A stretch of DNA of 10,869 bases from Actinomycetota bacterium. GTDB taxonomy: Bacteria > Actinomycetota > Thermoleophilia > RBG-16-64-13. Made by a program: the position numbers and the translations under genes. Positions 1,319 to 7,849 of the stretch are shown here, in pieces; the first letter of the stretch is position 1, and every line of letters begins with the position of its first letter. Location of the stretch: contig JAMDDA010000033.1 of the NCBI GenBank assembly GCA_023488925.1, forward strand, positions 1 through 10,869, given 5' to 3'. The notes beneath the pieces were generated by a model. That model was not told where the DNA came from, did not search any database, and saw nothing but the letters and a program-made list of their open reading frames with translations.

Positions 1319-1521
1319 GCGGCACCCCGCTTTCGCTCACACTGGGTACGCTCGGCCTCGGCGACCCAGATCTGCCGCGCCTCGGGGTGAGCCTCGAGGT
1401 CCTCCTCGATGATCCGGCGGATGCGGCCGGCGATCTCCTCGGAGAGGACGGGGTAGGCAACGCCGTCGACCAGGATGTGGTCGGTGGGGACGCTACAGGC
1501 TTTGGATACGCTGTCGGCCAT
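1315..1521 (-). CDS. Hypothetical phage protein, 68 aa
   Basis: The ATG at 1521 lies four bases after the stop of the Cro-like gene; a GAGGTGG upstream inside that gene can serve as ribosome binding site. The protein reads MADSVSKACSVPTDHILVDG and continues with an amphipathic helix (SEEIAGRIRRIIEEDLEAH) and a charged, Arg-rich end. The second position in a lysogeny-switch operon could suit an excisionase or a small regulator, but no helix-turn-helix is evident and I do not recognise the family. Confidence 0.65.
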   Translation of the reverse strand: MADSVSKACSVPTDHILVDGVAYPVLSEEIAGRIRRIIEEDLEAHPEARQIWVAEAERTQCERKRGAA

Positions 1522-1525
1522 TGGG

Positions 1526-1768
1526 CTATGCCACCTCTGGCATTTCTCGGCCGGCGACGACCAGGTCCTCGACAGTGCACCGAAGTGCTCGGGCATAAAG
1601 AATGAGAGTGTCGCCGCGCGGCCAGCGCTTCCCGGTCGCGTGATCGCTTACTCGAGCCTCCGTGAGGCCCACTATTTCGGCGAGTCGCCTCTGCGTCATC
1701 GGCCCTTCACCGGGGTGCCGTCGGGTCGCGTTGAACGCCTCGATCTGTTCCGCCAAGAGCAGTTTCAC
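1526..1768 (-). CDS. Cro-like XRE-family HTH regulator, 80 aa
   Basis: First gene of the leftward operon. The GTG at 1768 is chosen because GAGG lies 8 bases upstream and it falls well inside the transcript predicted from the promoter at 1808-1836; starts further upstream would cover that promoter. Residues about 24-70 form an HTH_3 (lambda-repressor-like) fold: MTQRRLAEIVGLTEARVSDH, then a basic turn TGKRWPRGD and the final helix ILYARALRCTVEDLV. At 80 residues it is essentially only a DNA-binding domain, as in Cro proteins. It is divergent from the 121-aa repressor across three palindromic operators, so it likely helps flip the lytic/lysogenic switch. The role comes from context; the fold is clear. 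Confidence 0.8.
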   Translation of the reverse strand: MKLLLAEQIEAFNATRRHPGEGPMTQRRLAEIVGLTEARVSDHATGKRWPRGDTLILYARALRCTVEDLVVAGREMPEVA

Positions 1769-1792
1769 CTGACCGTCCTCGTCTGTACGAGC

Positions 1793-1810
1793 TATGCCAA
1801 CGCTGGCATA
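1793..1810. promoter_or_regulatory. Operator O1
   Basis: The sequence TATGCCAACGCTGGCATA is a perfect 7-4-7 inverted repeat. It overlaps the -10 and start region of the leftward promoter, so a dimeric repressor bound here would block the Cro-like operon. Confidence 0.8.
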
Positions 1811-1836
1811 ATAGCACGCTATGCCAGCGTTGGCAA
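1808..1836 (-). promoter_or_regulatory. Leftward early promoter
   Basis: On the minus strand, a -35 TTGCCA (1831-1836) is followed by exactly 17 bases and a -10 TATTAT (1808-1813). The predicted transcript starts near 1800, inside O1. Operators O1 and O2 overlap both elements. Confidence 0.8.
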
Positions 1837-1837
1837 G
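1820..1837. promoter_or_regulatory. Operator O2
   Basis: TATGCCAGCGTTGGCAAG is the reverse complement of O1 in 16 of 18 positions, centred 27 bp from O1. It overlaps the -35 element of the leftward promoter. Confidence 0.75.
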
Positions 1838-1841
1838 CACC

Positions 1842-1859
1842 ATTGCCACCGCCAGCATA
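1842..1859. promoter_or_regulatory. Operator O3 (degenerate)
   Basis: ATTGCCACCGCCAGCATA matches O1 at 13 of 18 positions, centred 22 bp from O2 and just before the start codon of the divergent repressor. It is placed as an autoregulatory site would be. Weaker match, hence lower confidence. Confidence 0.5.
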
Positions 1860-1870
1860 GAGTGGGCGCA

Positions 1871-2236
1871 ATGGGCGATCAGACCATGGAAACCATCGAC
1901 ATAGCCCTGCGCCGATTGATGGATGAGCAGGGTCTGACCGAGACCGACCTCGCCGGCCGGACCGAGCTCAACCAGAGCACGGTGAATAGATACCTGCGGA
2001 AACGTCGCGGCCGCCAGCTCAATCCTCGCACCATAGAGACGATCACCCAGCTGGCCAGGGCCGTCGGGAAGGACCCCTCCTATTTCCTCGAGGTGCGGAT
2101 CTACGAAGCCCGGCACCAGGTCGAGAAGGCCATGCGCGAGGGCCTCCTCAGCCTAGAGACCCTGGAGACCCTTCTCGAGGAGCTCCGTCTGGAGAGGGAG
2201 GCCCGGGAAGCGCGGAGCGCCGGAGGAACACCGTGA
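1871..2236 (+). CDS. Phage-type XRE repressor, 121 aa, no peptidase domain
   Basis: Divergent from the Cro-like gene, this is the likely lysogeny repressor. Residues about 8-80 form an XRE/HTH_3 domain with the recognition segment LTETDLAGRTELNQSTVNRY, a basic RKRRGRQ turn and a closing helix ending PSYFLEVR. Residues about 78-115 are a charged, probably coiled-coil helix (LETLETLLEELRLERE), a candidate dimerisation arm. There is no Ala-Gly cleavage site and no S24 peptidase domain as in lambda CI or LexA, so RecA-stimulated self-cleavage is not expected. ATG 1871 is preferred over ATG 1886 because the paralog at 3579 begins with the same MxxxTME pattern. The ribosome binding site is weak; a short-leader or leaderless mRNA is possible. 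Confidence 0.85.
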   Translation: MGDQTMETIDIALRRLMDEQGLTETDLAGRTELNQSTVNRYLRKRRGRQLNPRTIETITQLARAVGKDPSYFLEVRIYEARHQVEKAMREGLLSLETLETLLEELRLEREAREARSAGGTP

Positions 2237-2336
2237 GCCGGCGCGCCTCAAGCACCGCCCAGCGGTGGTATCGGTCCTCCTCGTCCACCTCCTGCAGCAC
2301 CTTCGCCGCCCGCTCGACTGCCTCTCTACCGGTCAT
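2148..2336 (-). CDS. Small SOS-boxed protein, 62 aa (antirepressor candidate)
   Basis: The ATG at 2336 has a GGGAGG ribosome binding site five bases upstream, and a perfect LexA-type box lies 25 bp upstream at 2361-2374. The first 43 residues look like a real charged helical protein (EAVERAAKVLQEVDEEDRYH, then RWAVLEARRLTVFLRR). The last 19 are Pro/Gly/Ser-rich and read antisense to the repressor's coiled coil: the two genes converge and overlap by 89 bp. I do not recognise the family. SOS control plus adjacency to a non-cleavable repressor makes an antirepressor role attractive, but this is inference. Part of the frame could be a shadow of the repressor 3' end. Confidence 0.5.
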   Translation of the reverse strand: MTGREAVERAAKVLQEVDEEDRYHRWAVLEARRLTVFLRRSALPGPPSPDGAPREGSPGSLG

Positions 2337-2360
2337 CCTGCCCTCCCCCTCGCGGCCTAC

Positions 2361-2374
2361 CGAACACTTGTTCG
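2361..2374. promoter_or_regulatory. LexA (SOS) box 1
   Basis: CGAACACTTGTTCG is a perfect CGAAC-N4-GTTCG palindrome, the LexA/DinR operator type of Gram-positive bacteria. It lies 25 bp before the start of the leftward 62-aa gene. Confidence 0.8.
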
Positions 2375-2432
2375 TAGCCTACGCCAATCCCCGGACGGAA
2401 AACAAGGCCTCTCTACATGCAAATATCCTGCA

Positions 2433-2444
2433 ATTACGCATAAT
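2433..2444. repeat. 12-bp near-palindrome, copy 1
   Basis: ATTACGCATAAT is the exact reverse complement of the 12 bases at 2939-2950, so the two copies bracket the zinc-ribbon gene in opposite orientation. It contains CATAAT, a possible rightward -10 element, so it may be an operator. Confidence 0.5.
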
Positions 2445-2474
2445 GCCAGGACGGTTGTGTCTGGCCGCTAGGGG

Positions 2475-2488
2475 CGAACAGATGTTCG
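2475..2488. promoter_or_regulatory. LexA (SOS) box 2
   Basis: CGAACAGATGTTCG is a second perfect CGAAC-N4-GTTCG palindrome, 67 bp before the start of the rightward zinc-ribbon gene. Together with box 1 it frames the divergent promoter region. Confidence 0.8.
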
Positions 2489-2555
2489 CAACAAGCGCGG
2501 GAGGCGTCCGCTCAGGGCGGCGGACATGTGGAGCGAGTAGAAGGGGAGGTGGCTG

Positions 2556-2939
2556 ATGCCGGCATGCCCGCGATGCGGAGAATCGGTCGACGCGAACAAT
2601 CACTGTCCAGCCTGCGGGGCGACTGCCCTGCCCTTGCAGGCAGCCCCCGCCCCAAAGCGGCGGAGCCTCAAGCCTCTCTTGGGAGCACGCCATTCCGGCG
2701 GGCGGGTTTGCGAGCACTGCGGCGCGGCCGTGAGCTCCCAGGCCATTATGTGCGCGAACTGCGGGGCACCGCTGAAGCCCGAAGTATGTCTCCAGAAGCC
2801 CGTGGTCGCCCAGCCCAAGGGCCCGGTGGCGCAGGGCTTCTACATGGCGTTCGGCGCCTTTCTGTTCCTCATCGTGCTCGGCCTGTTCCTGGCGGTCCTG
2901 AATTTCATGTGCGCCGCAGCTCTTCTGTCGGGGTCGTGA
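2556..2939 (+). CDS. Double zinc-ribbon membrane protein, 127 aa, SOS-boxed
   Basis: The ATG at 2556 follows GGGGAGG with 6 bases of spacing. Two zinc-ribbon units are visible: CPRC (Cys 4, 7) with CPAC (17, 20), and CEHC (52, 55) with CANC (66, 69). A hydrophobic helix at about 95-118 (GFYMAFGAFLFLIVLGLFLA) anchors the C-terminus, so the ribbons probably sit in the cytoplasm. This resembles the generic bacterial zinc-ribbon (double zinc ribbon) membrane proteins, whose biochemical role is mostly unknown. The perfect LexA box upstream suggests DNA-damage induction. A membrane effector or a sequestering antirepressor is conceivable; neither is shown by the sequence. Confidence 0.8.
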   Translation: MPACPRCGESVDANNHCPACGATALPLQAAPAPKRRSLKPLLGARHSGGRVCEHCGAAVSSQAIMCANCGAPLKPEVCLQKPVVAQPKGPVAQGFYMAFGAFLFLIVLGLFLAVLNFMCAAALLSGS

Positions 2940-2950
2940 TTATGCGTAAT
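2939..2950. repeat. 12-bp near-palindrome, copy 2
   Basis: ATTATGCGTAAT is the exact reverse complement of 2433-2444. It starts at the last base of the zinc-ribbon stop codon and covers the ATG of the 18-codon frame. Confidence 0.5.
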
Positions 2951-2998
2951 GCGAGGAAGGCGGCCGGTCGGGCGGATAGAGGGAAGAAGGTAGCGTGA
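2942..2998 (+). CDS. Possible 18-aa basic peptide / coupling ORF
   Basis: The frame reads MRNARKAAGRADRGKKVA and its TGA overlaps the GTG of the next gene (GTGA at 2995-2998). The composition is strongly basic. Only a distant GGGG could act as ribosome binding site. It may serve to couple translation of the next gene, or it may be chance. Confidence 0.25.
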   Translation: MRNARKAAGRADRGKKVA

Positions 2999-3222
2999 AG
3001 GAACGGGTCGCCAAGATCATCAGGTTTCCTGTGGCTCGCCGGTGGAAGCAGAACGACCTGATCGCCCGCGGCTTGAATTGCTCGAACCCCAGCCAGATCT
3101 GGCTGGAGGGTAGCCCTGGGCCGAAGCTCCCGGCAAGCTCCCCCGGCGAGGCCATCGAGCTCCACAGGTTCCAGACCCCGGCCACCGATGACACCGCGGA
3201 CGACGGTCCCGGCGATGCGTGA
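2995..3222 (+). CDS. Hypothetical phage protein, 75 aa
   Basis: The GTG at 2995 is preceded by AGAAGG at 4 bases. The protein starts MKERVAKIIRFPVARRWKQN, basic and probably structured, then contains LIARGLNCSNPSQIWLEGS, and ends in an acidic Thr/Asp-rich tail that is likely disordered. It follows the SOS-boxed zinc-ribbon gene in the same direction with a 55-bp gap, so it may share that transcript. No family is recognised. It converges with the leftward gene ending at 3224. Confidence 0.5.
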   Translation: MKERVAKIIRFPVARRWKQNDLIARGLNCSNPSQIWLEGSPGPKLPASSPGEAIELHRFQTPATDDTADDGPGDA

Positions 3223-3223
3223 G

Positions 3224-3478
3224 CTAGCACGAGGCCTCGTAGGTCTCCGTGAGCTCGACGTGCCGGCAGTCGGGACAGATGAGATGCAGGTGCTCGCCGG
3301 AGACGCCCAGACGGCAGCGCTCGCCGCCCGCGCAGTAGCGCACTCGGGGCCGGCCGGTGCTACCGCACTTCGCGCACCAGACGTCGCCGGGGGTCAGCAG
3401 GGGAGGGTCGAGGGAGCGGAATGGCGAGAGGCTGATGGGTGGCCGTTCACAGTTCTCGCGGTCTTCGGCAGGAATCAC
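3224..3478 (-). CDS. Cys-rich zinc-binding protein, 84 aa
   Basis: The GTG at 3478 follows GGGAGG at a good distance, and the promoter at 3513-3541 would give a leader of roughly 25-30 bases. An upstream in-frame ATG at 3541 lies inside that promoter's -35 element and is rejected. Cysteine pairs are C35/C38 (WCAKCG), C49/C55 (YCAGGERC) and C68/C71 (ICPDC), with His 63 and His 65 between: one or two zinc sites, like small zinc-ribbon phage proteins. It occupies the position relative to the second repressor that the Cro-like gene occupies in the first switch, but it is not an obvious HTH. Nucleic-acid or protein binding is possible; the exact role is unknown. Confidence 0.75.
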   Translation of the reverse strand: MIPAEDRENCERPPISLSPFRSLDPPLLTPGDVWCAKCGSTGRPRVRYCAGGERCRLGVSGEHLHLICPDCRHVELTETYEASC

Positions 3479-3512
3479 GGCGCCTCCCTTCTTGCGTGGC
3501 CGGCGCGGCTCG

Positions 3513-3541
3513 AATATAGCGGGGTGTTGCACCGATGTCAA
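3513..3541 (-). promoter_or_regulatory. Near-consensus leftward promoter of the second switch
   Basis: On the minus strand a consensus -35 TTGACA (3536-3541) is followed by exactly 17 bases and a -10 TATATT (3513-3518). It is the closest match to the sigma-70 consensus that I found in the window. Confidence 0.85.
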
Positions 3542-3562
3542 TTATGGTTTGCATCCGTGCAT
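3528..3562. promoter_or_regulatory. Candidate operators of the second repressor
   Basis: TTGCATCCGTGCAT (3549-3562) holds a 4-4-4 inverted repeat (TGCA/TGCA). A related site, TTGCACCGATGTCA, begins at 3527 and overlaps the -35 element; the two are spaced 22 bp. Also TGCACCGATG (3528-3537) and CATCCGTGCA (3552-3561) form a 10-bp inverted pair with one mismatch. The layout parallels O1-O3 of the first switch with a different sequence. Confidence 0.5.
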
Positions 3563-3578
3563 TAGCTTTGTGGCCGGA

Positions 3579-3890
3579 ATGCACGAGCGAACGATGGAAC
3601 CACTACCGCAAGCCCTGCGCACGCTCATGAATGAGCGCGGCATCACCGATGGGATCGAGCTCTCCGGGATAGCGGACGTTTCCGCGGCGACTGTAAGCCT
3701 GTACTTGTCCGGTCGGCGCGGGAGGGAAATCAACTCCCGCTCCATCCGCACCGTCGAGAAGTTCGCCGCCGCCCTGCGAGTGAAGCCGGAGTACTTCCTC
3801 GAGTATCGGCAGATGAAGGCGGAGAGGCTGGTGCGGGAGGCGATGGCGGCGGGGACACGGTCAAGGTGCTCGACCCACAAGGGCACATAG
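3579..3890 (+). CDS. Second XRE repressor, paralog of 1871-2236
   Basis: The 103-aa product aligns along its length with the first repressor: MHERTMEPLPQALRTLMNER against MGDQTMETIDIALRRLMDEQ, then a shared HTH, a GRRGREI/KRRGRQL turn and PEYFLEYR against PSYFLEVR. ATG 3579 is preferred because both proteins share the MxxxTME start. The C-terminus in this frame (TRSRCSTHKGT) looks wrong. A -1 shift at the four Gs at 3851-3854 gives DTVKVLDPQGHIVLSQSY ending at 3910, which looks like genuine coding sequence. So either an assembly indel, a decayed end, or -1 frameshifting. It is divergent from the Cys-rich gene and presumably represses its promoter. Confidence 0.8.
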   Translation: MHERTMEPLPQALRTLMNERGITDGIELSGIADVSAATVSLYLSGRRGREINSRSIRTVEKFAAALRVKPEYFLEYRQMKAERLVREAMAAGTRSRCSTHKGT

Positions 3891-4181: not shown

Positions 4182-4319
4182 TATCCTTCTCGCCCACGAA
4201 CGTCTATTGTTCTCGGCGGTCGTCACTGGCTCCAGGTGGTCCGGGTTCACGCAGGAGGGGTTAGGGCACAGATGATCGATTACAAGTCCTGAGGGACCGA
4301 CCACTACGACGACTAGCAC
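4176..4319 (-). pseudogene. HNH endonuclease remnant
   Basis: Reading leftward from about 4289, the frame encodes [20 protein letters not shown] followed by [12 protein letters not shown], ending at the stop 4176-4178. This is the core of an HNH nuclease: the DH of the first H motif, C-x4-[10 protein letters not shown] and ENNRR. The N-terminal part normally present in phage HNH proteins (over 100 aa) is missing. Upstream the frame is a run of Val codons with a GTG at 4319 but no ribosome binding site. I infer a homing-type endonuclease gene truncated by rearrangement next to the integrase. A 47-aa expressed fragment is unlikely to be active. Confidence 0.7.
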
Positions 4320-4345: not shown

Positions 4346-4374
4346 CGTCCCGCGTGGCCTGCCCTGGCGGGACG
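4346..4374 (+). promoter_or_regulatory. Stem-loop before the integrase gene
   Basis: CGTCCCGC (4346-4353) pairs perfectly with GCGGGACG (4367-4374), loop 13 bases. It ends 30 bases before the integrase ATG and could attenuate the transcript or control its translation. The 326 bases between 4078 and 4403 otherwise hold only the HNH remnant and the repeats listed here. Confidence 0.4.
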
Positions 4375-4403
4375 TGGGGCCCTCGGACCTGGAGCTACAG
4401 AGC

Positions 4404-5858
4404 ATGATGACGGCAGGTTCGGACAGAGGACGGCGGGCCTTCGGCTACGTCAGAGTCTCAAAGTCGCGCGATGACATGATCTCGCCCGAGATCCAGCGAG
4501 ATGAGATCACCCGCTTCGCCGAGCAGAAGGGCTGGACCGTCATAGCCGTGTACGAGGACCTCGACCTCTCCGGACGCTCGTGGGACCGGGGCCGCCGCGA
4601 AGGCCTCAATCGCCTCCTCGACGACGCCCTCGCCGGGGCCTGCGACGTTGTCCTCTTTTATCGCATCGACCGCTTGGCCCGGGAGGAGGCCGACTTCCAT
4701 GCCATCCTCGCGACGCTCACCCGGGCCGGCATCCACTGCGATTCCCCAGGCAACCCCAACGACGGGAGCCCGGAGTCGGCGTTGATCTGGTCCATCTCCG
4801 CGGCGCTCGCGAAGTACGAGAGCGTGAAAATTGGGGCCCGCCTCAGGGACGCCCACCGGCGGCTGGCCCGAGAGGGACGCTGGTCCGGGGGCCCACCGCC
4901 CTACGGGTTCAAACGCGTGCAGGATGGAAACGGAGTACGCCTGGTAGCCGAGCCGCAGGAGCAGGAGGTGCGGCTCTGGATACACGAGAAGTACCACCAA
5001 GGCTGGGGGGCGCAGAGGATAGCGCGAGCCCTCAACCAGCGCGGCGTCCCGACGCAGCAGGGCAAGACCTGGCAGAGGGCAACCGTCGAGGTGATCCTCT
5101 TCCGACCGATTCAGGTCGGGGCGCGGGAGGTCGACGGGAAGCTCGTCTTCGGCGGGAATATCGAGGCCATCGTGCCCCTCGACATCTACCAGCAGACGCT
5201 CGCCATCCGAGAGGCCCGCCGACACAAGCCCCAGAAGGGGCGGCCGCCGCGTACGCCCCTAACCGGCCGCCATGTTCGTTGTGGAACCTGCGGCAGCCGG
5301 CTGTACGCGCGATACCACAGGAAGCCGCCGGTCCTCTATTACACCTGCCATGGTCGCAGGCAAGGTCTGTGTGATCGTGGCCCAGCCGTGAAAGTAGATG
5401 AGCTCATATCTCACGTCGAGGAGCGGCTCTTCCAGCGTCTCAAGCGCGCCCACGCTCCCCGCACCCGCCCGCCAGCGCCATCAATCGCGCCTCTGCGCGA
5501 GGCGGTCGACCAGGTGGAGCAAGCCCTCGGCCGCTTGGCATCCATGTACGCCGCAGGAGAGCTCTTAGAGGGAGAGTACCGGGCGGCCCGGGAGCTCCAG
5601 CTGAAGCGCCTCGAGAAAGCGGAGCGGGCGCTGGAGCGCGCGATCGCGCGCACGGAGGACCTGGCCCAGGCCGACATCATTGATGCGACTTGGGAAGACC
5701 TGGGAGAGATGACCCGAGCCCAATGGCGAGCGCTGAGCGTCCAAGCGCAGAGGGACATCTACGACCTGGTGCTCGACCGAGTCGTGGTGTACCCAGTGGA
5801 GGAGCCGAGCCGCCTGCGCAGCAGAAAGGCGCGGCGGATCGAGGTCTACTGGCGATAG
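4404..5858 (+). CDS. int: Large serine recombinase (phage integrase), 484 aa
   Basis: Serine integrases join phage attP to host attB without high-homology sequences. The catalytic domain is complete: YVRVS gives Arg17 and nucleophile Ser19, and YRIDRLAR gives Asp89, Arg90 and Arg93. A recombinase domain follows at about 165-275 (PPYGFKRV, then LNQRGVPTQQGKTWQRATVE). The zinc beta-ribbon uses Cys293, Cys296, Cys315 and Cys323, and a coiled coil at about 364-420 matches the region that controls directionality in large serine integrases. ATG 4404 is chosen for the GGAG nine bases upstream; the GTG at 4374 lies in the hairpin. At 484 aa it is full length and appears intact. It points toward the ssb fragment, where the att site is inferred. 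Confidence 0.95.
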   Translation: MMTAGSDRGRRAFGYVRVSKSRDDMISPEIQRDEITRFAEQKGWTVIAVYEDLDLSGRSWDRGRREGLNRLLDDALAGACDVVLFYRIDRLAREEADFHAILATLTRAGIHCDSPGNPNDGSPESALIWSISAALAKYESVKIGARLRDAHRRLAREGRWSGGPPPYGFKRVQDGNGVRLVAEPQEQEVRLWIHEKYHQGWGAQRIARALNQRGVPTQQGKTWQRATVEVILFRPIQVGAREVDGKLVFGGNIEAIVPLDIYQQTLAIREARRHKPQKGRPPRTPLTGRHVRCGTCGSRLYARYHRKPPVLYYTCHGRRQGLCDRGPAVKVDELISHVEERLFQRLKRAHAPRTRPPAPSIAPLREAVDQVEQALGRLASMYAAGELLEGEYRAARELQLKRLEKAERALERAIARTEDLAQADIIDATWEDLGEMTRAQWRALSVQAQRDIYDLVLDRVVVYPVEEPSRLRSRKARRIEVYWR

Positions 5859-5888: not shown

Positions 5889-5910
5889 GATGTCACAAGT
5901 TGGCGTCATC
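5889..5910. other. Predicted att core (prophage/host junction)
   Basis: Between the integrase stop (5858) and the broken end of ssb lies an imperfect dyad (GATGtCaC against its partner in GGCGTCATC) centred on GT at 5899-5900. Serine integrases recombine at such imperfect palindromes through a central dinucleotide. The ssb frame stops at 5893-5895, just past the centre, as expected for a junction. The exact core is inferred. Confidence 0.5.
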
Positions 5911-6018
5911 CCCGTTGCGATCGACGGCCAGGATGAAGCTGCAGACCTTGGAGCCTCCGGTCACTTCCCTGATGTCGACGTCGGTGGCCAGCCGGCCGAT
6001 GAGATGCACGCTGTTCAT
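5893..6018 (-). pseudogene. ssb: Single-stranded DNA-binding protein, 3'-truncated
   Basis: The ATG at 6018 has a strong ribosome binding site (AAGGAGG, then CGACAC). The 41 residues begin MNSVHLIGRLATDVDIREVT and continue with SKVCSFILAVDRN, the first strands of the bacterial SSB OB-fold. The frame ends DDANL-stop, where SSB normally continues NFxxV(V/T)xW and so on; a full protein is about 130-180 aa. The missing part holds the Trp DNA-stacking residues and the acidic C-terminal tip, so the fragment cannot function. The break lies next to the integrase end, so I infer insertion of the element in ssb; the other part should be beyond the far prophage end. Since SSB is essential, another ssb copy is expected. 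Confidence 0.8.
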
Positions 6019-6085: not shown

Positions 6086-6182
6086 GGGCGGGCGGAAATA
6101 CGCCCTTGGTTGGAACCGGGGCCGCAGCCAGGCGGGGCCGGACCGCCCCCTTGTGGATTCCCGGGCGGGGTGCAGCTGGGCA
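6086..6182 (+). repeat. 97-bp dispersed repeat, copy 1
   Basis: The stretch matches 7753-7849 in the same orientation at 95 of 97 positions (differences at 6092 and 6161). It is GC-rich, contains GGAAATACGCCC near the left end and GTGCAGCTGGGCA at the right end, and has no obvious coding. Candidate types are a short nonautonomous element, an IS end, or a REP-like sequence. Confidence 0.85.
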
Positions 6183-6540: not shown

Positions 6541-7002
6541 TCAGCTTGGCCCCTGGGACCGGACTTCATTCGGTTGCGGGTGTCGGATCGGTCCAAGAGC
6601 GCAGACCGCCGTCTCCAGCCTCTCGGCAGCTGTCATGAGGTCTTCAAGGAGTCGGCGGTCGATCTCCGCATAACCCTCGTATTCGGACATGTTGCGGGGG
6701 CCATGACACTTGTCCAGGACGCGCCATACCTCTGGACCAAGTCCGACGGTGTGCGGAAGAGCTTGGAAGACCATGTAGCGGCTGTCGGACCGAAACCCGT
6801 GCCAGCGAAGAGCCGCCGAAGCCAAAGCATGGGAGGCGTTGTACGCCAAGTCGAAGCGGCTCTCGAGCGCCAAGCTGGGATCATGCGCATCTTTCAACCG
6901 CGCCCGTGCGGAACGCACTAGACCGGCGAACTCGGCCTGAGTCGCGACCTCGCGCTTCAGCTTGCCCACCCGGCCCAGGTTCTCAAGTTCACTCGAGGTC
7001 AC
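6541..7002 (-). CDS. HEPN-domain protein, SAV_6107-like, 153 aa
   Basis: The GTG at 7002 overlaps the end of the nucleotidyltransferase gene by 14 bp, so the two are translated together. Helical throughout, it carries the signature of SAV_6107-like HEPN proteins: RFDLAYNASHALASAALRWH (from residue 49), then FQALPHTVGL, and CHGPRNMSEYEG (99-110). HEPN domains paired with MNT nucleotidyltransferases form toxin-antitoxin systems in which the HEPN partner is typically an RNase. Here the usual RX4-6H motif is replaced by R103-N-x3-Y108, with His100 before it, so RNase activity is uncertain. An alternative is a ligand-binding or regulatory HEPN partner of the transferase. Confidence 0.75.
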   Translation of the reverse strand: MTSSELENLGRVGKLKREVATQAEFAGLVRSARARLKDAHDPSLALESRFDLAYNASHALASAALRWHGFRSDSRYMVFQALPHTVGLGPEVWRVLDKCHGPRNMSEYEGYAEIDRRLLEDLMTAAERLETAVCALGPIRHPQPNEVRSQGPS

Positions 7003-7594
7003 TCTCCGACCCCAGGATGAAGATCTTCGGCTGAACGGAAATCTTGCTCACAAAGTGGCTTTTCTCGGCTCGTTTCTTCCGCCATTCTTCCCCGGTCAGA
7101 AGGCTTGGGTTGACTCGCCTGCCAATCCGCTCTTCTGCCCCTTCCAGCGCCGCAAACAGCTCCGCGTAGGAGAGTTCATTGCTCAGGATCATGAGGTCGA
7201 TATCGCTCCCGGCGGTATCGGCGCCTTTGGCGACCGAGCCATAGACAAATGCGGCCACGATCCGTTCGGCCAACGGAGCCAGCGCCTGGCGCAAGGGTTC
7301 CGCCAATCCCACCGTCTTCAGCACCAGACCATGGAGTTCCGTGAAAACCGGAGAGGCCCGGTTCGCCTGGTAATGCCTTTGCCGCCCAACCGGGGTCACC
7401 GTGACCAGTCCACTGCCGGCCAGCCTGGCCAGCTCGCGGTGCACGGCGCCGGTGCCGACAGCGGCCAGGCGAATCAACTCCGTCGCCAGGAAACTCCGGT
7501 CGGGTTGCGCGAAGAGCAGACCCAGCACCCGCTGCTGCACGCGGGTGAAAAGCGCATCGGCGAGGCTGGTATTCTGTGGCTCCTTGCTTCCCAT
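6989..7594 (-). CDS. Winged-helix plus MNT nucleotidyltransferase, 201 aa
   Basis: First gene of the two-gene unit. Residues about 11-80 form an ArsR-like winged helix (RVLGLLFAQPDRSFLATELI, AVHRELARLAGSGLV). Residues about 105-200 hold a minimal nucleotidyltransferase (NTP_transf_2) core: FVYGSVAKG at 117-124, followed by GSDIDLMI with metal ligands Asp131 and Asp133. In MNT/HEPN pairs the transferase commonly neutralises the HEPN toxin, in characterised cases by adding AMP to it; here it would also repress its own promoter through the wing. ATG 7594 is chosen because it lies in an operator palindrome right at the predicted transcription start, so the mRNA would be leaderless; no ribosome binding site is present. 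Confidence 0.85.
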   Translation of the reverse strand: MGSKEPQNTSLADALFTRVQQRVLGLLFAQPDRSFLATELIRLAAVGTGAVHRELARLAGSGLVTVTPVGRQRHYQANRASPVFTELHGLVLKTVGLAEPLRQALAPLAERIVAAFVYGSVAKGADTAGSDIDLMILSNELSYAELFAALEGAEERIGRRVNPSLLTGEEWRKKRAEKSHFVSKISVQPKIFILGSESDLE

Positions 7595-7603
7595 ATTGGG
7601 AAG
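7587..7603. promoter_or_regulatory. Operator A over the start codon of the MNT gene
   Basis: CTTCCCATATTGGGAAG is a perfect 7-3-7 inverted repeat that contains the gene's start codon and overlaps the -10 element. Likely autoregulatory site of the winged-helix domain. Confidence 0.75.
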
Positions 7604-7630
7604 CTTACGACCCAATCTGGGAATGTTCAA
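7602..7630 (-). promoter_or_regulatory. Promoter of the MNT/HEPN unit
   Basis: Minus-strand TTGAAC (7625-7630), 17 bases, TAAGCT (7602-7607). The predicted start falls at or within a few bases of the ATG at 7594, so the transcript would be leaderless or nearly so. The remaining stretch 7631-7752 shows no gene. Confidence 0.65.
7611..7621. promoter_or_regulatory. Operator B in the promoter spacer
   Basis: CCCAATCTGGG repeats the core of operator A (CCCA-N3-TGGG), centred 21 bp away on the same helix face. It lies between -35 and -10. Confidence 0.7.
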
Positions 7631-7752
7631 GTGCCGGCTTCTTAGCCCCAACCCACCGGTCAACCGCCCAAAATCGAGCCGCAAATAGAAGACAGCTGCC
7701 CTCTTTCCTGGGACGATGTGGGTTGCTGAACACCCCACCGACAGTGAGTATA

Positions 7753-7849
7753 GGGCGGCCGGAAATACGCCCTTGGTTGGAACCGGGGCCGCAGCCAGGC
7801 GGGGCCGGACCGCCCCCTTGTGGATTCACGGGCGGGGTGCAGCTGGGCA
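7753..7849 (+). repeat. 97-bp dispersed repeat, copy 2
   Basis: Second copy of the repeat at 6086-6182, same orientation, two differences (7759 and 7828). It begins 159 bp upstream of the MNT start and ends 3 bp before the stop codon of the histidine kinase gene. Confidence 0.85.

Follow-up and report, generated by a model that had tools for sequence, protein, structure and literature searches.

Antirepressor proteases of the ImmA/IrrE type (Peptidase_M78), known from ICEBs1, form one class of proteins that relieve repression in mobile elements: ImmA acts by cleaving the ICE repressor. Antirepressors under LexA control form another, and the named ones come from enterobacterial phages: Tum of phage 186, AntC of phage N15, and GfoA and GftA of the Gifsy prophages of Salmonella (PMC3121763). 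As described in that source, the Gifsy proteins are small, LexA-repressed and inactivate a repressor that remains uncleaved, their LexA-controlled unit lies outside the immunity region beside a dinI homologue, and Tum has 146 residues with a DinI-like second half. In TF-smORF prophage modules, the phage repressor is inactivated by a small protein with few homologues; these modules are described as SOS-independent, with autoproteolytic repressors (PMC10432266). In phage GIL01, LexA is reported to bind a set of boxes at the lysogenic promoter (PMC4551915). Mycobacteria possess LexA/RecA-independent damage promoters that depend on PafBC, with the reported consensus tTGTCRgtg, 8 nt, TAnnnT (PMC5656591) and a -26 motif read by PafB (PMC11804915); the M. 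smegmatis motif is seemingly not conserved in S. venezuelae (PMC9380542).

The locus described here adds a small protein family, P62, that is accompanied by a LexA box and situated beside a non-cleavable repressor in actinobacterial prophages. P62 probably acts in the same manner as the LexA-controlled antirepressors from Gifsy, 186 and N15, but no family common to it and them was recognised in the libraries searched. It differs from the Gifsy proteins in phylum and in mostly abutting the repressor gene, and from Tum, compared by description, in length (members have 43-68 residues) and in lacking the DinI-like half. P62 has no protease domain and, unlike ImmA/IrrE, would act by binding. The TF-smORF modules are set apart by their trigger, which here would be the host LexA, and by their repressors, here one without a peptidase domain. 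A literature search found no paper joining "prophage induction" with "Thermoleophilia".

Table 1. Coordinates of the features of the locus and the basis of each assignment
Feature	Coordinates	Strand	Basis and remarks
Xre3, likely Cro-like first gene of the leftward, putatively lytic operon	1526..1768	-	Pfam; start GTG 1768 chosen
Operators (putative), inverted 16-nt arms 1795-1810 and 1820-1835	1795..1835	.	repeat search
Xre1, likely CI-like lysogeny repressor; HTH domain followed by a helical tail	1871..2236	+	Pfam, model; start may be ATG 1886
P62, 62 aa, candidate antirepressor; core conserved over residues 1 to ~40	2148..2336	-	family profile and alignment
LexA box 1 (predicted), CGAACACTTGTTCG	2361..2374	.	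exact CGAAC-N4-GTTCG; immediately after the -10 of the P62 promoter, which points leftward
Predicted damage-promoter core of P62: GTCCG (2396-2392), 10 nt, TAGGCT (2381-2376)	2376..2396	-	alignment of P62 upstreams
LexA box 2 (predicted), CGAACAGATGTTCG	2475..2488	.	exact CGAAC-N4-GTTCG; before the rightward 127-aa gene
127-aa protein, two zinc-ribbon matches, hydrophobic C-terminal stretch (by eye)	2556..2939	+	Pfam
75-aa frame after the 127-aa gene, relatives in L045 and L047	2995..3222	+	Pfam scan, locus comparison
Xre2, Xre1 paralogue, separate cassette with 105-aa leftward frame 3224-3541	3594..3890	+	locus comparison
Large serine integrase (phrog_95)	4374..5858	+	Pfam and PHROG matches
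ssb, first 41 codons, frame then breaks off; likely attachment site	5893..6018	-	compared with G004

The prophage end and its regulators

The window, that is, the whole stretch of 10,869 nt analysed, corresponds to contig C114 of a 1.25-Mb draft genome that is 65% complete, and represents the immunity and integration end of an actinobacterial prophage. Only this end is present on the contig; the left part is missing. The genes are ordered, from left to right, as Xre3, operators, Xre1, P62, the boxes, the 127-aa gene, the 75-aa frame and the Xre2 cassette. In a relative, G004, whose integrase is 72% identical to that of the window, the start of ssb lies ~0.7 kb from the integrase stop and matches the same 41 codons, and here too it is followed by unrelated sequence. 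Since ssb is broken after codon 41 near the integrase in both cases, it is the likely attachment gene, and the prophage has apparently been inserted at this point. The genes on the Xre3 side of G004 encode a DNA methyltransferase, portal, tape measure (a weak match) and endolysin; judged from this relative, the portal, tape measure, endolysin and integrase place the element among the tailed temperate phages (Caudoviricetes). An Xre protein of G004 is 100% identical to one in the IMG/VR viral contig L077.

The extension of the Xre3-side genes of G004 to portal, tape measure and endolysin also identifies Xre1 as the CI-like partner, so that Xre1 is the likely repressor and the Xre3 side the likely lytic one. 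The arms of the predicted operators overlie a leftward promoter-like site, TTGCCA-17-TATTAT (1836-1808). Xre1 has 121 residues, forms six helices in the model and has relatives of similar length. The initial annotation had described the neighboring repressor as devoid of a self-cleavage domain, and Pfam agrees: HTH-type domains are the only ones of note in Xre1 and in the other two Xre regulators, and no peptidase domain was matched. Damage must therefore reach Xre1 by another route.

Several further features of this region were recorded. Xre2 and the divergent 105-aa frame (3224-3890) recur beside other genes in G001 (L047, 8216-8958), and the Xre2 tail differs from that of its G001 relative. 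When phage records were searched with the DNA of the window, only positions 4187-4280 gave a match, to two records that belong to a single phage; this stretch shares ~81% identity with an HNH endonuclease gene from Streptomyces phage Hydra and is perhaps a fragment. Two leftward frames at 6541-7738, which by eye we take to resemble a HEPN/nucleotidyltransferase toxin-antitoxin pair, are flanked by direct repeats of 97 bp with 98% identity (6086-6182 and 7753-7849).

LexA boxes and the damage promoter

Two exact CGAAC-N4-GTTCG palindromes had been reported in the initial annotation, one before a leftward 62-aa frame and one before a rightward 127-aa frame; both palindromes and both frames are present as described, and the frames are preceded by purine-rich stretches that by eye resemble ribosome-binding sites. 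The mean number of exact boxes expected in the window is 0.02, and none of 200 shuffled versions contained two. The whole draft genome has six exact box places: two on C114 and one each on C104, C147, C182 and C199. Three of the four boxes outside the window lie inside listed open frames; that of C182 lies between frames, ~420 nt from the nearest listed frame start. The form GTC.G-N10-TAnnnT followed by a box, described below for P62, is absent from all four.

A search of 31 genomes for the LexA family HTH gave matches in 28, of which 26 reached E 2.9e-20 or better and two were weak; LexA was not found in the host's own incomplete bin (65% complete). Each of the 20 lexA loci of relatives examined has, just upstream of lexA, a match to CGAAC-N4-GTTCG that deviates at no more than one position, and the sites of L007 and L011 are identical in letters to box 2. 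Recognition of a different motif by the host LexA had been named initially as a possible objection; as far as can be judged from sequence, the motif is the LexA box of this clade, and it is very likely that the predicted boxes act as LexA sites.

The arrangement of the boxes recurs in relatives of the locus. Box 1 occupies the same position relative to the P62 gene in L046, L049, L050 and L084. A second box at a distance of 107-118 bp from the first is also found in L046 and L084; L085 has one as well, at 112 bp from a box 1 that is a 13-bp variant. L045 lacks box 1 and retains the far box, box 2, alone. A GTTGCA element that is conserved before box 2 could not be read as a promoter.

Alignment of the regions upstream of P62 gave a candidate damage promoter in which GTCCG occupies the position of the -26 element of PafBC promoters. 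The exact form GTCCG-N10-TAnnnT precedes P62 in seven of the nine loci not chosen by promoter (shuffle mean 0.008, maximum 1). The exceptions are L085, with a spacer of 7, and L084, where the -10 is CAGGGT and not TAnnnT. The GTCCG element was first spotted by eye in these same loci, which include two close pairs (L048/L080 and L049/L050), so these shuffle figures flatter the element and tests on host genes are fairer. Of the 20 lexA loci, 11 carry the same form no more than 150 nt before the lexA HTH (shuffle mean 0.02, maximum 1); when spacers of 6-15 nt were tried, 10 nt gave these 11 loci and each other length gave none or one. Of 299 genomes from the class, 193 contain element and box together, and a single one (G007) contains the reversed pattern. 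G001, G004 and G013 (L123-L125) have a gene of the dnaE type, likely a member of the host damage regulon, at a distance of a few hundred nucleotides behind the same promoter and box; PHP and DNA_pol3_alpha domains were found in the G013 copy, to which the Pfam scan was confined. As for the box itself, it stands a few bases after the -10 in the window, L046, L049, L050 and L084, and precedes the GTCCG element in L048 and L080.

Compared with the mycobacterial consensus, the GTC core and the 8-nt spacing before TAnnnT are kept in seven of nine P62 loci and 11 of 20 lexA upstreams, whereas a C follows GTC, giving GTCCG and not TGTCRgtg, the tg is absent, and a LexA box comes directly after (PMC5656591). 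The HTH_PafC family was matched in 20 of 21 genomes searched, 15 of them over the cut-off, and was not matched in the incomplete genome G000; as it is also matched in five of 14 control genomes, including E. coli, the family match is not proof of PafBC. PafBC dependence in this clade is putative, and a PafBC-type second input at the P62 promoter is a well-placed guess that we put forward tentatively. Literature searches combining prophage and PafBC gave no report of such a link at the level of titles and abstract openings.

The P62 family and its genomic context

Ten P62 loci were counted: the window, L045, L046, L048, L049, L050, L080, L084, L085 and L134. The first relatives (L045, L046, L048, L049 and L050) were obtained through Xre homology, not through boxes. 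A profile of these and the window gave L085 and L084, both in G014; L080 came from a scan of genomes with Xre, and L134 from a promoter search. Box and promoter governed the choice of L134, and that of L084 rested partly on its TGxE start and two boxes, so that seven loci besides the window were not chosen by box. A LexA box with at most one mismatch lies within 160 nt upstream of P62 in all ten loci, and the pair of gene and box is conserved among relatives. Of 20 Xre-homology loci examined, five contain P62, each with a box within 160 nt, and 15 have no P62 at E 0.05. Among these 15, L043 has an exact box and some others have scattered one-mismatch matches, and none has the form GTC.G-N10-TAnnnT followed by a box, which is present in its strict version in two of the five loci with P62.

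At E 0.01, the P62 profile matched 24 of 399 genomes. Seven of them, matched at 2.3e-7 or better, all belong to the host family, in which they make up seven of 18 genomes; six of the seven are sources of the profile itself. The counts exclude the 17 weaker genomes (E 1.7e-4 to 0.0096), L084 excepted, and L058-L060, examined among these matches, have no box within one mismatch. In a phylum-wide sample of 396 genomes, P62 was matched in three, all from the host family. L085 is a clear copy (E 2.3e-7) with a stop inside the gene. L084 scored E 0.003 in the first profile and 4.6e-22 once itself part of the alignment. A further relative, L075/L086 (G014:C43; E 2.9e-5, and 8.2e-9 with a later profile), is found in a different setting, in a 3.1-kb locus with no box within one mismatch, and was left out of the counts.

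The core of the family has the consensus MTGRE.L..VA..L..VP..DP.A.WC.ALA..I...L. For L049/L050, the dN/dS ratio is 0.15 when the whole gene is taken and 0.10 for codons 1-33, and for L048/L080 it is 0.02; third-position changes dominate in both pairs. By these ratios, purifying selection acts on P62 in the pairs that could be assessed. The model of the L050 protein is a two-helix hairpin with a mean pLDDT of 92-98 over residues 1-40. Six members scanned gave nothing below E 0.04 in Pfam or PHROG and no sequence match in PDB, and a fold search of PDB with the L050 hairpin returned nothing at E 0.001, only chance matches. Viral contigs searched directly with the 62-aa and 127-aa proteins, or with a profile of two P62 members, gave no match, nor did tblastn of a P62 member and an Xre1 relative against phage records.

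An Xre protein of one family is found in the same element in eight of the ten P62 loci, directly convergent with P62 in seven and 1.6 kb away in L134. In L085 there is no Xre match at E 0.001, and the frame before P62 resembles an Xre tail by eye; in L084, no Xre is present on the 6.3-kb contig. The L084 region (1391-3281), which comprises the P62-like gene, two LexA boxes and an HSDR_N-domain gene, adjoins a tRNA-like sequence (by eye) and may be either a remnant or a satellite with the trigger alone.

A search of 2.9 million viral contigs for the promoter with an exact box found eight stretches, and a reversed control found 13. The count is thus not above chance, and only the content of three of the eight speaks for the search: (i) in L134, the first gene behind the promoter belongs to the P62 family (profile E 1e-7, among 21 loci), and proteins related to Xre1 (46%), to Xre3 (51%) and to the integrase (57%) are encoded close by; (ii) in L137 and L138, two related viral contigs, GTCCG-N10-TACATT with an exact LexA box immediately precedes a gene of the Peptidase_M78 (ImmA/IrrE) type. 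The Pfam match in L137 is just over the cut-off and the L138 gene is near-identical by eye; a gene for an HTH regulator lies further along in L137. The other five stretches were read as downstream and divergent frames only, L133 and L136 also as frame lists. Since this promoter also stands before ImmA-type genes in prophages that are unrelated, it may serve actinobacterial prophages as a general alarm site, and the signature GTCCG-N10-TAnnnT plus box provides a search key for their induction genes.

The proposed induction switch and alternative readings

The initial annotation suggested that one or both of the small proteins may be an antirepressor of a new type. For P62 this suggestion is strengthened by conservation together with the box, the convergent Xre gene, coding selection and the promoter; for the 127-aa protein, which has a relative at this place in one other locus and sits in a variable slot, it is not borne out. 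We favor P62 as a damage-induced antirepressor of the non-cleavable Xre1, and on balance this part of the element appears to be the induction switch of a tailed prophage. The switch would operate as follows: (i) in the lysogen, Xre1 bound to the operators would silence the leftward lytic operon that starts with Xre3, and the host LexA on box 1 would hold the P62 gene off; (ii) upon DNA damage, cleavage of LexA, together with a PafBC activated by single-stranded DNA if the clade resembles mycobacteria in this respect, would turn P62 on from a promoter that has the form of host damage promoters, GTCCG-N10-TAnnnT, possibly with a PafBC-type activator, and then a LexA box; (iii) P62 would bind and inactivate Xre1, and the phage would be induced. 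Through box 2, LexA would likewise control the rightward cargo, in this case the 127-aa zinc-ribbon membrane protein. A dual-sensor version, in which P62 is released by LexA cleavage and simultaneously activated by a PafBC-type sensor of single-stranded DNA, copying a host promoter, is conceivable but short of likely. If it is true, induction reads two damage pathways at one promoter and responds even when RecA is limiting. The promoter in any case suggests that prophages may tap a second damage pathway of the PafBC type.

Four other readings were weighed against an antirepressor function of P62. Both P62 and the 127-aa protein could be damage-induced cargo serving, for example, growth arrest, defense or counter-defense, with Xre1 inactivated from the missing left part. 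The single prophage end on the contig, the variation of the box-2 gene between elements and the P62 relative L086, found in another setting without a box, are compatible with this; yet P62 is constant, unlike the box-2 genes, an Xre of one family accompanies it in most loci, and in L137 and L138 its position behind the promoter is occupied by a gene of the ImmA/IrrE type, which leaves cargo for both proteins unlikely. P62 could instead be an excision or recombination partner (directionality factor), LexA then timing excision. In L048, L080 and L134 it is indeed divergent from the integrase gene across a single box. However, the integrase is kilobases away from P62 in the window, L045 and L046, none was seen beside it in L049, L050 and L084, the family occurs with serine as well as tyrosine integrases, and the L050 model is a bare helical hairpin with no evident DNA-binding fold; we consider such a role quite improbable.

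The LexA-controlled leftward transcript might act chiefly on xre1 as antisense RNA or by convergent transcription, the protein being secondary. The P62 gene and xre1 are convergent with a 3' overlap of 89 bp in the window, and overlaps with xre are also found in L045, L046, L049 and L050. This proposal is weakened by the dN/dS values, which point to strong selection at the protein level also outside the part shared with xre1, by the ~1.6 kb that separate P62 from Xre in L134 and by L084, where no Xre was found, and we give it a slim chance. Finally, LexA could be a phage co-repressor as in GIL01, the boxes serving lysogeny directly. Two boxes flank the divergent promoter region, comparable to the set of boxes described for GIL01 (PMC4551915), but the lytic operon has Xre-type operators of its own 0.5 kb away without a box, and the boxes stand at P62 and the cargo genes; of the four readings, we regard this one as the least probable.

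The gene behind box 2 was compared across the loci. A relative of the 127-aa protein occupies this place in only one other locus, L046 (40% identity), and in L045 and L084 the box-2 gene encodes an HSDR_N-domain protein, the two copies being 80% identical. The single box of L048 and of L080 is between P62 and a tyrosine integrase gene. Since the box-2 gene differs between elements, it looks like replaceable damage-induced cargo and not a second antirepressor; the 127-aa zinc-ribbon protein is probably cargo of this kind. An inverted 19-nt repeat around ATTACGCATAAT, a possible operator, has one arm between the two boxes (2426-2444) and the other at the end of the 127-aa gene (2939-2957).
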